Source: Rhodococcus marinonascens NBRC 14363
GTDB lineage: Bacteria > Actinomycetota > Actinomycetes > Mycobacteriales > Mycobacteriaceae
Reading direction: 5' to 3'
Length of the DNA stretch: 64,000 nt
Assembly: GCF_001894885.1 (NCBI RefSeq)
Contig: NZ_BCXB01000001.1
Location: forward strand, 310,001-374,000
Below, piece after piece: positions 38,679 to 53,594 of the stretch. Below the pieces are notes generated by a model. The model was not told the DNA's origin, searched no databases, and saw only the letters and a program-made list of their open reading frames with translations. The position numbers were made by a program, and so were the translations under genes. Numbering within the stretch: the stretch's first letter is position 1; each line of letters opens with the position of its first letter.

Positions 38679-38824
38679 GCGCGGCGTACTTTCTTCAGTA
38701 CACGAGGAAGGAGGTGGTCTGAAATTGAATGACAAACGGACACGTGAGGTGGCTGCCGGCTAGCCGCTACCGCTGATGGAATTCACTGACCGCGCGAGCG
38801 ACGAGCGAATCCCAGGCAGCTACC

Positions 38825-38892
38825 CGGCCCCTGAGCCCCCGGTCTGGTCCAGATCGGGCCCGGTGCGACATGCACCGGAGGCTCGGGGGCCG
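38825..38892 (+). terminator. long hairpin after cydC
   Basis: CGGCCCCTGAGCCCCCGG (38825-38842) pairs with CCGGAGGCTCGGGGGCCG (38875-38892) with two mismatches, with an inner loop of about 32 nt. Confidence 0.6.
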
Positions 38893-38918
38893 ATCGGCGT
38901 CCGTGAGTACTAGTCGAC

Positions 38919-38950: not shown

Positions 38951-39672
38951 CAGCCGATGTAGCGGGCGAGCCGCGCGGAGAGGTGGGGGAGGAGTTCACC
39001 GTCCGCGTTGACGCGTTCCTCGACGTAGGCCAAGTCGCCGCCCTCGACGATGCCGTAGAGACGCTTGGCGCCGCCGACGAGGGCACCGGAGGTGCTGCGG
39101 ATCACGACGTCGGTCGTGAGTTCCCACGACGACTGCGTGAGGGCGCGACCGTAGAACAATTCGACGATGCCGGAACTGTGGGTGAGGAGCAGTTCGACGA
39201 CTTCTTCGTTGGTGCTGCCAGGGATGCCGTCTCCGCTGATCCGCCAGAAGCCGGATTCGCGGAGGTCGGGACGCACGTACTCGCCTTCGGCATCGAGAAG
39301 CCAGGACCGCGATTCCCAGCTGAGGTAGTTGCCACCGTTGTGGGAGACGATGATCTGCTGGCCGAAGCGGTAGTCGCCCGTGCCAGCGTCCTGACCTTCT
39401 CCTTCGCCGCGCCACACGCCCACCAGGGGCAGTACTGCGAGGAGTTCGTTGTTCAGATCCGGGCCGAGACGGAGATTGGCCGTGTCCTCGGACAACGGAA
39501 GGTCCGGAAGCTGAGGTAAGTTCCGCGAGGCCGTCGTCTTGGAACGCTCGATCGCATCGGCAACGGCCGCATCGCCGCTACCACGACGCGCACCAGGGGT
39601 GCCCCCGGCCGAAGCTTCGGAAGTCGGCTGCTCGGGAGAGGGATCTGCGCCTGCGTCCGGGGTTCGACTCAC
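38950..39672 (-). CDS. nitrobindin-type heme-binding protein
   Basis: A 240-aa beta-barrel protein with a long variable N terminus. The core holds [58 protein letters not shown] and [20 protein letters not shown]; the conserved His near the end ([15 protein letters not shown]) is the heme ligand in the family. It is the orthologue of Rv0813c. The GTG at 39672 overlaps the stop codon of a 32-aa membrane peptide (GTGA), so translation is coupled; an in-frame ATG at 39894 would give an unlikely N terminus. Confidence 0.87.
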
Positions 39673-39767
39673 GACTCGTCGGTGACCAGGCGGTAGATCG
39701 TGTACAGGGAGAACCACGTGATCAACACCGCGGCAAGGACAAGAAGTACCTCGAATAAGATAACCAC
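39669..39767 (-). CDS. 32-aa single-helix membrane peptide upstream of nitrobindin
   Basis: The ORF GTG 39767 to stop 39669-39671 gives a peptide with one hydrophobic helix ([20 protein letters not shown], then IYRLVTDES). AGGA about 8 nt upstream supports the start, and its stop codon overlaps the nitrobindin GTG in GTGA. It fits a conserved small membrane protein type, but I cannot name it. Coupling suggests it affects nitrobindin translation or acts with it. Confidence 0.6.
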
Positions 39768-39895
39768 GGTGCCATCCTAAACCGAGGCCGCCGAACGCCC
39801 GAAACGGGAGACATATTCCCGAGACTTCGGCCAGGCCCTGCACCTCCACCCCAAAAAAGGCAACCAGTGGGTTGGTTTCGGCGCTCTCGCACACC

Positions 39896-39930
39896 GAAAG
39901 GGCCCGCTCCGAATCGGAACGGGCCCTTTC
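39896..39930 (-). terminator. hairpin downstream of the DUF1416 gene
   Basis: GAAAGGGCCCG (39896-39906) pairs with CGGGCCCTTTC (39920-39930). It lies just beyond the stop codon of the minus-strand DUF1416 gene. Confidence 0.8.
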
Positions 39931-39949
39931 GCGTGTATCGGCTCGTGAT

Positions 39950-40255
39950 TTACTCGCCGACGATGACGTCGACGTTGAGCACGCCGGCGCCGGTCGGGCT
40001 CACCGTGGAGGTGCCGTTGCCTGAACTGGACAACGCACGCACGGTCCAGTCGCCGGGTGCGGCGAAGAAACGGAAGTCTCCGGTGCCCGATGCGACGACC
40101 TCGGCGGTGAACTCTCCACCACCGTCGAGGAGCCGGACGAACGCTCCACCGATCGGCTGGCCGTCAGCGGCGAGGACGCGGCCGGTGATGACCGTTTCCT
40201 TCTCCACGTCCACGCCCGCGGGCAGGGTCTGGGTCTGTACTGGTGCTCCGCACAT
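39950..40255 (-). CDS. DUF1416 protein (SseC-like)
   Basis: A 101-aa protein: [40 protein letters not shown], a transthyretin-like beta-sandwich repeat of the DUF1416 family, corresponding to SseC in M. tuberculosis (Rv0814c, Rv3118). It is always found next to a thiosulfate sulfurtransferase; here only 3 bp separate its start from the sulfurtransferase stop, so they form one operon. Its biochemical role is unknown. Confidence 0.87.
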
Positions 40256-40258
40256 GAT

Positions 40259-41095
40259 TCAGTGAACCTCCAACTCGATTGGTGCGCCGACGAGTGAGCC
40301 GTATTCGACCCAGCTGCCGTCGTAATTCTTGACGTCGGACTTGCCGAGGATTTCCTTGAGCACGAACCAGGTGTGGCTGGAGCGCTCGCCTATACGGCAG
40401 TACGCGATGGTGGGCTTGGACTCGTCGTAGCCCTTCTCCGCGTAGAGCTTCTCGAGGGCCTCGTCCGACTTGAAGGTGCCGTCCTCGTTGGCGGTGGTGC
40501 TCCAAGGGATGTTGATCGCGCTCGGGACGTGTCCACGCTGCTGAGCCTGCTCCTGCGGCAGGTGCGCCGGCGCGAGGATCTTGCCGGAGAACTCGTCGGG
40601 TGAACGGACGTCGATGAGGTTCTTGTTCCCGATGGCGTCGATTACCTCGTCGCGGAACGCTCGGATCGACAGATTGGGCGCTTTGGCCTCGTACTTGGTG
40701 GTCTCGCGGATGACGGCCTCGCGTGAGAGGGGGCGCCCGTCAAGCTCCCACTTCTTGCGGCCACCGTCGATCAGCTTGACATCATCGTGGCCGTACAGCT
40801 TGAAGTACCAGTATGCGTAGGCGGCGAACCAGTTGTTGTTGCCACCGTAGAGAACGATGGTGTCGTCGTTGGCGACGCCTTTGGCGGACAGGAGATCGGA
40901 GAACTGCTGCTGGTTCAGGAAGTCGCGGCGGACGCCGTCCTGCAGGTCCTTCCGCCAGTCGAGGCGAATGGCACCTTCGATGTGGCCGCCGTCGTATGCG
41001 CTGGTGTCCTCGTCCACCTCGACGAAAACGGTCTTGGGGGTGTTGAGGTTCTGCTCAGCCCAGTCGGCGGAGACTAGGACATCGGAGCGAGCCAT
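40259..41095 (-). CDS. thiosulfate sulfurtransferase (rhodanese), CysA2/SseA type
   Basis: A 278-aa two-domain rhodanese. The C-terminal active-site loop is TIAYCRIGERSSHTWFVLKE with the catalytic Cys, and the N-terminal domain has VFVEVDEDTSAYDGGHIEGA and NNNWFAAYAYWYFKLYGHDD. The start is the ATG at 41095, preceded by AAAGGAA; longer frames upstream run through four 15-bp repeats. It is the orthologue of Rv0815c. A polycysteine leader ORF and the repeats upstream suggest regulation by cysteine supply. Confidence 0.92.
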   Translation of the reverse strand: MARSDVLVSADWAEQNLNTPKTVFVEVDEDTSAYDGGHIEGAIRLDWRKDLQDGVRRDFLNQQQFSDLLSAKGVANDDTIVLYGGNNNWFAAYAYWYFKLYGHDDVKLIDGGRKKWELDGRPLSREAVIRETTKYEAKAPNLSIRAFRDEVIDAIGNKNLIDVRSPDEFSGKILAPAHLPQEQAQQRGHVPSAINIPWSTTANEDGTFKSDEALEKLYAEKGYDESKPTIAYCRIGERSSHTWFVLKEILGKSDVKNYDGSWVEYGSLVGAPIELEVH

Positions 41096-41107
41096 GGTGT
41101 TCCTTTC

Positions 41108-41167
41108 GGTGCGTATTTGCACGGTGCGTATTTGCACGGTGCGTATTTGCACGGTGTGTACTTGCTC
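41108..41167. repeat. four 15-bp tandem repeats upstream of the sulfurtransferase gene
   Basis: The unit GGTGCGTATTTGCAC is perfect at 41108-41122, 41123-41137 and 41138-41152, with a diverged fourth copy at 41153-41167. They lie 12-72 bp before the gene start, in the presumed 5' untranslated region. In the gene's own orientation they also keep an open frame. Confidence 0.9.
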
Positions 41168-41374
41168 GGTTCGGGTGGTGGTGACCAACGCCACGAAGCG
41201 GAGGCCACGGATGCCGACCCTCAGGGCGTCGAGTGAGGTGAACATATGAAGCGATCCTGCGTAAGTCCGCAATGCCGGCTTGGCGCCGAGAAACGATGGA
41301 AGTGCGTCATCATCGTCGGTCTCGATCACGTGCGTGGAGTCTGCGGTGTCAGCAGAGAGCGACAGCCCTGGTGA

Positions 41375-41440
41375 TCAGCGGCAGATACAGCAACAAGCCC
41401 CGAGGCGACACAGATCGACCGTGCGGCGTCGGGTGAGCAT
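41375..41440 (-). CDS. polycysteine leader ORF (21 aa)
   Basis: A minus-strand ORF from ATG 41440 to TGA 41375 with the sequence MLTRRRTVDLCRLG then ACCCICR, five cysteines out of 21 residues, three in a row. Peptides of this form are cysteine-responsive attenuator uORFs upstream of sulfur-metabolism genes in mycobacteria. AGGAG lies 3 nt upstream, and a -10-like TAAACT lies 28 nt upstream, so here it may not be leaderless. It is 280 bp before the sulfurtransferase gene on the same strand. Confidence 0.75.
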   Translation of the reverse strand: MLTRRRTVDLCRLGACCCICR

Positions 41441-41468
41441 GAGCTCCTGGCTGGATTGCACGGGCGCC

Positions 41469-41474
41469 AGTTTA
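41469..41474 (-). promoter_or_regulatory. -10-like element before the polycysteine leader
   Basis: TAAACT on the minus strand, 28 nt upstream of the leader start, with TTCAAG about 16 bp further upstream as a possible -35. Confidence 0.35.
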
Positions 41475-41683
41475 CCCCGTTTTCCGGGAACTTGAAGCCC
41501 GGGGGGTCGACTGCGGGATTTCGGAGCGGTTCGCAGAGCGGCCGGGGTGGATGCTCCGGCTATCCGGAAGTGCGGACGCAAGATGGAGCCGGGAATGGAG
41601 TTCCCGACAGCGGTACTTGCGAGTTCCCTAGGGAGAGATCAGTATTCGGCGACTACGAATCCTCCTCCGGTGGTGGTTGCCAG

Positions 41684-42463
41684 CTATCTTCTCTGTAACC
41701 CGTCCAGGTTGATCGTGACGTTGTCACCCACACCTTCGATGACGATCTGCGACCCCTCCGCATAAACCTCTGTCGGCTGCACACCGAACGGGAGTTCCCG
41801 GGGGTCGATCGTCCGGGTGAAGAGACCGAGGACTGCGTGAGCCAGCGGATCCGGGATGGCGAAGTCGGCCTCGCCCTCCGGCCCGAAATAGAAATCGCTA
41901 GCGACAATCTTCACCTGGCCGCCGTCGAGCACCAGGTCGGCCTGAACGCTGACCGTCGTCTCGAGGGGCCCGACCGGGACCGTGCCAGTAAGGACTACTC
42001 CGCCCGCGGTGGGCGTGCCCGAACCGCCGGAACCGCCGGTGCCGTCCGACCTGCTGGCAGGCGGGGCCGAAACCTGAAGGTCTGCAATGTCGAGAAACTG
42101 GCCCAAGTCGGTGGCATCGATGAGCATCCTGCCGGAGAGGTGATCGACAGGAACGGTCGCCACGGTGCCGTTCACCAACTCGGACAGGGGTGCAGAGACA
42201 CCCTGTAAGGTGGATTCGATCGTCACCTCACCTACCTCGTCGCTCTGCACCCCCTGGGCGCGAATCTCGATGTCGTCATATTTTCCTTCCCACGCTTGGA
42301 TGAGAAACGGGAAACCGTGCACCGTGACCTCGGGATCTGCTGTGAGCGACGCGCCCGCCCTCAGTTCCCTCGAGATCCGGTACTCCGCGTACGCCGCCGA
42401 GCCGAAGTCGACGACGAGACCGAGAGCAACGAGGAATACCATTCCAATGATGAGTTTCCGCAC
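41684..42463 (-). CDS. DUF2993 lipoprotein-like envelope protein (LmeA-like)
   Basis: A 259-aa protein with an N-terminal membrane helix ([20 protein letters not shown]), a TULIP/DUF2993 domain ([40 protein letters not shown]) and an Ala-Gly-Ser-rich low-complexity stretch near residue 145. In mycobacteria the orthologue LmeA (Rv0817c) activates lipomannan mannosyl transfer. It is divergent from glnR and about 600 bp from the sulfurtransferase leader. The thioredoxin-like gene found at this position in M. tuberculosis (Rv0816c) is absent here. Confidence 0.8.
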
Positions 42464-42600
42464 GGCCCCATTGTGGCCGACGCCGTTCCGCGGAATGTCG
42501 GCGCGATGCGCCTGCGCCGGGTTGCGGGGGTTCGGCGCAACGGGCCCCGACTCCGGCGCGCTACTCTGTGACCGACAAGACTGTCGAGATGGGAGGTCGT

Positions 42601-52637: not shown

Positions 52638-53594
52638 CTACGAAACCCGCTGCTCGCGCTTCTTGGCCTCACGGGCGAGCATGCGGTCGCGCTGCTCCTC
52701 GAACTTGGTGGCTTGGGCATCGAGGTTCTCCAAAAACTTGCCCAGGCCCTCGCGGATCTCTTCTCCGCGGGCGGTGAAATCGTTCCGCTCGAAGACGTTC
52801 CACTTGCGGACGACGGGCATGACAACCTCCTCGAGGTGCTGGCGGAGGTCGTAGATGCCGTGCTTGGCCATCAGCACCCCGTTGCGCCGGAAGTTTGGCA
52901 TGCCTGCGCCGGGCATCTGGAAGTTCTGGACGACATGGTCGATGGCTTCGAGTACTTGATCGGGCGCGAGGTCGAGAGCCGCACCGCACATATTGCGGTA
53001 AAAGATCATGTGCAGGTTCTCGTCGGCCGCGATGCGCTGGAGCATCTTGTCCGCGATCGGCTCGTTGCACGCCTTACCAGTGTTTCGGTGGCTGACACGG
53101 GTGGCCAGCTCCTGAAAGGTCACGTAAGCGACGGAGTGGAGGAAGCCCGCCTCCACTCCGGAAGGGGAGGAGAAGCCGTTGGTCATGTGCTCCATACGGA
53201 ACTGCTCGAGCTGGACGGGGTCGACGGCACGGGTCACGACAAGGTAGTCGCGCATCACGATGCCGTGACGGTTCTCCTCAGCGGTCCAGCGACCGACCCA
53301 CGTGCCCCAGGCGCCGTCCTGCGAGAAATTCTCGGCGATCTCACGGTGGTAGGAGGGCAGGTTGTCCTCGGTGAGGAGGTTGGTGATCATCGCAGCCTTG
53401 GCGACCTCGTCGAGCCGGGACTGCGCGGGATCCCAGTCGATGCCGCCCAACTCGGCGAAGTTGCGTCCTTCGTCCCACGGGACGTAGTCGTGGGGGTGCC
53501 ATTCCTTGGCCATGGAGAGGTGGCGGTTGACGTTCTCTTCCGCAACCGGCAACAGCTCCTGGAGCAGTTCGAGTTGGGTCAGATCCCTCGCCAT
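52638..53594 (-). CDS. acyl-ACP desaturase DesA-like
   Basis: A 318-aa soluble diiron desaturase. The first helix pair carries the ligand motif RWTAEENRHGIVMRDYLVVT (EENRHG) and the second IAADENLHMIFYRNMCGAAL (DENLH), with the earlier Glu in VAEENVNRHLSMAKEW. It matches DesA1 of M. tuberculosis (Rv0824c), involved in mycolic-acid precursor unsaturation. The ATG at 53594 has GGAGG 8 nt upstream; an in-frame ATG at 53609 is less likely. Confidence 0.9.
   Translation of the reverse strand: MARDLTQLELLQELLPVAEENVNRHLSMAKEWHPHDYVPWDEGRNFAELGGIDWDPAQSRLDEVAKAAMITNLLTEDNLPSYHREIAENFSQDGAWGTWVGRWTAEENRHGIVMRDYLVVTRAVDPVQLEQFRMEHMTNGFSSPSGVEAGFLHSVAYVTFQELATRVSHRNTGKACNEPIADKMLQRIAADENLHMIFYRNMCGAALDLAPDQVLEAIDHVVQNFQMPGAGMPNFRRNGVLMAKHGIYDLRQHLEEVVMPVVRKWNVFERNDFTARGEEIREGLGKFLENLDAQATKFEEQRDRMLAREAKKREQRVS

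Follow-up and report, generated by a model that had tools for sequence, protein, structure and literature searches.

A probable leaderless polycysteine leader ahead of a sulfurtransferase-DUF1416 operon in Rhodococcus marinonascens

Cysteine leaders of mycobacteria and the rhodococcal locus

In Mycobacterium tuberculosis and M. smegmatis, a small open reading frame (ORF) with a C-terminal cluster of Cys codons lies upstream of cysA2 (Shell et al., 2015; PMC4633059). The same authors describe 70S ribosome occupancy of the Cys-rich ORF in M. smegmatis and suggest attenuation (Shell et al., 2015; PMC4633059). Excerpts of a review state that leaderless ORFs with Cys codons regulate downstream translation through the cysteine-dependent speed of elongation (PMC9031893), and translation attenuation of cysteine genes in mycobacteria is reported in a portion of a further article (PMC13236596). 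The excerpt of PMC9386245 holds nothing on the cysteine leader. Outside mycobacteria, no paper on the rhodococcal locus was recognized among the literature matches listed, from which subscription journals are mostly absent.

The locus considered here lies in a 64-kb stretch of R. marinonascens DNA, referred to as the window. An earlier note on this DNA had placed a polycysteine leader ahead of sulfurtransferase and DUF1416 genes, and this arrangement is borne out: both genes have Pfam matches, and the distance from the stop of the upstream ORF (uORF) to the sulfurtransferase ATG at 41095 measures 279 nt. The sulfurtransferase (40259..41095, minus strand, 278 aa) contains two rhodanese stretches (PF00581), has homologues at E ≤ 1e-60 in 55 of 61 genomes, and is preceded by a ribosome-site-like GAAAGGA (41101..41107, minus strand) that is the same or almost the same in relatives. 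The name CysA2 is given to this protein by the similarity of its place; NCBIfam gave no match over a cut-off for 40259-41095. The second gene of the presumed operon (39950..40255, minus strand) encodes a DUF1416 protein of the SseC type (PF07210, E 6.7e-42), and an LmeA-like gene (41684-42463) lies upstream of the uORF.

At gathering thresholds, Rfam has six matches in the window and none at the uORF locus. Two plus-strand matches are recorded as separate observations: Ms_IGR-5 (RF02471, 139 bits, 38700-38898), listed by Rfam as an sRNA of Actinobacteria, and ASdes (RF01781, 81 bits, 53209-53276), listed as a TB sRNA. A possible hydrophobic small protein of 32 aa (39669-39767, minus strand) has no match in NCBIfam or Pfam at E ≤ 0.001.

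The polycysteine uORF and its conservation

Positions 41440-41375 of the minus strand encode MLTRRRTVDLCRLGACCCICR followed by a stop. Five of these codons specify Cys, and four of the five lie within the last seven. The earlier note had taken this 21-codon stretch as the entire ORF; the five Cys codons stand, and the 5′ boundary moves, as the frame runs on to a GTG at 41461. The probable leaderless polycysteine uORF (41375..41461, minus strand) has 28 codons with a GTG start and reads (V/M)QSSQELMLTRRRTVDLCRLGACCCICR, with Cys codons at positions 18, 23, 24, 25, and 27 and the C-terminal end CRLGACCCICR.

The uORF is genuine and beyond chance. The window holds 1612 frames that end in a stop and have at least 14 codons, and among them it alone has at least five Cys in its last 12 codons. 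In 64-kb sequences generated by a first-order Markov model, the mean number of such Cys-rich ends was 0.05, and 5 of 100 runs produced one or more. Elsewhere in the window, a single further open stretch packs five Cys into seven codons, though not at the end of its frame. A search of the organism's own genome with the uORF at E ≤ 10 returned the uORF itself and no second copy. Scanning that genome with a raw Cys-run pattern was uninformative, yielding 38 matches vs 59 in the reversed control.

For comparison, 150 upstream regions of sulfurtransferase genes were assembled, of which 30 came from one homologue list, 40 were chosen among its remaining entries, and 80 were named (the best 80 of 592). 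Removal of the duplicate contigs L083-L085 left 147 loci, to which several genomes contribute two or three copies. The core pattern of the uORF is present in 122 of the 147 loci scanned. It is missing from 25 (L031, L043, L051, L054-L071, L109, L140, L161, and L162), among which L043 has a weaker version with one Cys and L065-L071 are the lower-identity copies in the homologue list.

Selection was examined in 46 distinct TRRR-type uORFs, each 87 nt long, a sample that excludes the mycobacterial TKRR type and others. Across 27 codons, variable sites number 11 at first, 9 at second, and 20 at third codon positions. All 46 encode Cys18, 23, 25, and 27; codon 24 specifies Cys in 44 of 46, Asp in L003, and Arg in L014. 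The change to Asp in L003 could reflect relaxed selection. It is this conservation that supports the cysteine-sensing part of the reading developed below. At the level of sequence, both the ORF and its Cys codons are seen to be conserved, as is the spacing between the −10 element and the start codon.

Start codon and promoter

The frame is open up to GTG 41461, and conservation starts at that codon rather than at ATG 41440. A −10 element, TAAACT (41469..41474, minus strand), ends 7 nt before the GTG, so that the transcript is predicted to begin at the start codon. Among the 122 uORF-bearing loci (of 147 scanned), 120 have TANNNT 6-8 nt before a start codon, with a spacing of 7 nt in 100, 6 nt in 16, and 8 nt in 4. 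The corresponding background in these sequences is 0.4% of positions, and the two loci without this layout are L038 and L041. The start codon is identical in position to GTG 41461 in 103 of the 120 (95 GTG, 8 ATG), and named loci sharing the layout come from Rhodococcus, Rhodococcoides, Nocardia, Mycolicibacterium, and Mycobacterium. A scan of 39500-42500 for the sigma-70 consensus, requiring both hexamers, found no site, including at the predicted promoter (0 found vs 0.3 expected by chance); the case for the promoter therefore rests on the −10 element and its conservation. Leaderless initiation at GTG 41461 is probable.

The earlier note had the uORF translated from the internal ATG (41438..41440, minus strand) by means of an AGGAG resembling a ribosome site, with the same cysteine sensing. 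Both motifs are indeed present, and the codon at the internal position is ATG in 71 of the 103 homologues that share the upstream start. However, the AGGAG (41448-41444) is just 3 nt from ATG 41440 and recurs upstream of the internal codon position in 3 of the 103, while 32 of the 103 have Leu, Val, Ser, Lys, Arg, or Gln at that position. Moreover, the upstream GTG, Glu6, and Leu7, all before the internal ATG, are invariant in the 46 distinct TRRR-type uORFs. Shine-Dalgarno-led initiation at ATG 41440 was rejected on this conservation and is given very little credence; the internal ATG is probably Met8 of the uORF, and the AGGAG is best read as an accident of the Gln-Glu codons. The AGGAG reported earlier is real, and its role as a ribosome site is unsupported. 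The contrast that had been drawn with the leaderless mycobacterial cases is likewise unsupported, since the start codon, the −10 element, and their spacing are common to Rhodococcus, Nocardia, and Mycobacterium loci.

The best explanation of the locus is a leaderless cysteine-sensing uORF upstream of the sulfurtransferase-DUF1416 operon, to which we assign a probability of roughly 0.72.

Family models and other cysteine leaders

The uORF shares with the mycobacterial cysA2/Msmeg_5788 uORF its short length, its C-terminal Cys cluster, and its position upstream of a cysA2-type gene. The likeness to mycobacterial Cys leaders proposed in the earlier note is upheld and amounts to homology in the same genomic place as the cysA2 uORF, given the core, the start, and a family-model match. 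Mycobacterium loci have the core LT-R-R-x-V-D-L-C-R and the start layout in common with the window; the same core and start occur upstream of the same gene in most of the Mycobacterium loci L105-L160, and none was found in L140, L161, or L162. The peptides differ at their ends, which read CCCICR in the window and CCCCCCSC in many Mycobacterium loci.

The NCBIfam model NF042933 (Ms5788A family Cys-rich leader peptide) matches uORF residues 6-27 with an E value of 2.1e-9, at 36.9 bits in the protein scan and 34.7 bits in the genome scan, below its curated cut-off of 45 bits, and the uORF is accordingly not assigned to the model as curated. The general model NF042934 gives the uORF 23 bits vs a cut-off of 27; NF042935 proved to be an unrelated model. 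When 246 genomes were drawn from across the class, 189 matched NF042933 at E ≤ 0.01 and 34 of these passed the cut-off; among 14 control genomes, 1 matched and none passed the cut-off.

Two further leaders were found in the R. marinonascens genome. An Ms4527A-type leader (NF042936; locus L081, contig C9:40847-40909, minus strand; 41.3 bits, under the cut-off of 45) precedes a gene for a sulfite/nitrite reductase, and 7 nt separate CACAAT from the ATG of the leader. An Ms4533A-type leader (NF042937; locus L186, C9:24358-24441, plus strand; 48.2 bits, over the cut-off of 31) ends in DIDCC and lies upstream of a gene for a solute-binding protein; here, 7 nt lie between TAAAGT and the GTG of the leader. 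These families differ from the uORF of the window in both their peptides and their downstream genes. The resulting set of three leaders looks like the mycobacterial cysteine-leader group.

Loss of the DUF4395 gene

The window differs from the mycobacterial cysA2 system in that the DUF4395 gene has been deleted. In 96 of the 122 uORF-bearing loci, a DUF4395-like motif pair lies between the uORF and the sulfurtransferase, and for one such gene, that of L004, Pfam confirmed the assignment. A further 22 loci (Gordonia, Williamsia, Tsukamurella, Modestobacter, and others) have a short leader of less than 330 nt without the motif, and 4 have neither. The DUF4395 model PF14340 has no match at E ≤ 0.001 across the whole R. 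marinonascens genome.

What is left of the gene is a remnant (41177..41260, minus strand), identified by alignment with L003 and L004, which comprises the old ribosome site GCAGGA (41260-41255), ATG 41245, and about 23 codons as counted on the alignment, followed by the deletion. The deletion is common to the window and its relative L003. Between the remnant and the sulfurtransferase start, Tandem Repeats Finder detected 4.3 copies of a 15-bp tandem repeat (41107..41170, minus strand) that is absent from L003. The leader of the window is an ordinary, genuine relative of the known mycobacterial system, with a lineage-specific loss of the usual next gene.

The remnant in the window is in frame with the sulfurtransferase gene with no stop between them, and ATG 41245 reads 50 codons in frame into the sulfurtransferase, passing through the 15-bp repeats, which are whole codons. 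The deletion may accordingly have put the attenuated DUF4395 ribosome site ahead of the sulfurtransferase, in which case the leader would control an N-terminally extended form and the normal form would be made from its own start. If true, the N-terminally extended sulfurtransferase would represent an attenuator re-aimed by gene loss. This possibility is improbable and is weakened by L003, where the same deletion is present, the remnant ATG is gone, and the remnant is out of frame.

RNA folding and the output step

In 2020, Canestrari et al. reportedly found that, in the mycobacterial system, uORF RNA occludes the ribosome site of the following gene and that ribosome stalling exposes that site. 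Of 62 leaders in which a DUF4395 gene comes first, 50 have a predicted probability P > 0.5 that the DUF4395 ribosome site pairs with the uORF. Mean pairing before and after synonymous shuffles is 0.59 and 0.59 for Rhodococcus, 0.69 and 0.59 for Mycobacterium, and 0.78 and 0.61 for Nocardia. Consensus folds of the three clades pair this ribosome site with the Cys tract in Nocardia and Mycobacterium and with the 5′ end of the uORF in Rhodococcus, a result that is suggestive only, since the control was a column shuffle. Coevolution between the uORF and the DUF4395 site is weak overall (191 of 5000 permutations were as good); by clade, it is weak in Nocardia (314/5000) and absent in Rhodococcus (3309/5000) and Mycobacterium (2881/5000). 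Rhodococcus uORFs bind the DUF4395 sites of other clades more strongly than their own. In relatives, control likely acts by freeing the DUF4395 ribosome site, which is able to pair with the uORF.

Binding ranks were compared with identical uORFs counted once and loci without a recognized first gene omitted. The share of leader stretches surpassing the first gene's ribosome site in uORF binding has a median of 0.22 for 77 DUF4395-first loci vs 0.78 for 16 cysA2-first loci; in the window, 63% of leader stretches outdo the sulfurtransferase site. With a model ribosome stalled on the uORF, the sulfurtransferase ribosome site has a predicted openness of 0.63-0.69, hardly different from the 0.66 obtained when free, and fold calculations for the window did not show that site to be under uORF control.

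With its likely pairing partner deleted and no switch predicted at the sulfurtransferase site, the uORF might be a fading relic that controls nothing and persists for lack of time. The two loci whose uORFs have lost Cys24, L003 and L014, the only such cases among the 46, both lack DUF4395, which would fit such decay. Against this, the window retains all five Cys codons along with an intact start and −10 element, and the 22 of 122 loci with a short leader and no DUF4395 motif have kept uORFs with 2 to 7 Cys, at least four in 13 of the 22. We consider the relic explanation unlikely.

Alternatively, the uORF could act on transcription, choosing between an intrinsic terminator and read-through, as a terminator-like hairpin right after the uORF stop in L014 might suggest. 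The leader of the window contains no terminator, and terminators are not enriched in leaders generally, with 16 of 116 having one vs 15.3 expected from shuffles; transcription attenuation is thus highly improbable here. The L014 hairpin (CCAGGT-TCCTT-ACCTGG, then GTTTTT) is of interest for its own lineage, which might attenuate transcription. A Rho-like C-rich leader was likewise rejected, as its maximum C/G in 78 nt is 2.07 and values elsewhere in the locus run up to 2.12.

Proposed mechanism and implications

Under the leaderless cysteine-sensing explanation, we infer where transcription begins, that the ribosome stalls, and how the operon responds to cysteine, as follows. RNA polymerase would start at GTG 41461, and the ribosome would initiate right at the 5′ end of the transcript. 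With ample Cys-tRNA, the ribosome would pass through the Cys tract (codons 18, 23, 24, 25, and 27) and be released, resulting in weak expression of the operon. Once Cys-tRNA becomes scarce, the ribosome would stall in the tract, the leader RNA would refold, and operon expression would rise. As a working guess, the output step in the window may be refolding of the 279-nt leader, or else a change in message decay or early termination of the message. Cysteine-responsive control of the operon is likely, judging from the conserved features of the leader.

Rhodococci and nocardiae would thereby share the logic of the mycobacterial cysteine leader, including its leaderless-type start, and the NF042933 matches suggest that related leaders exist across the class. 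Lineages that have the uORF and lack DUF4395 offer a natural test of whether control occurs through masking of the ribosome site of the next gene or by another route.
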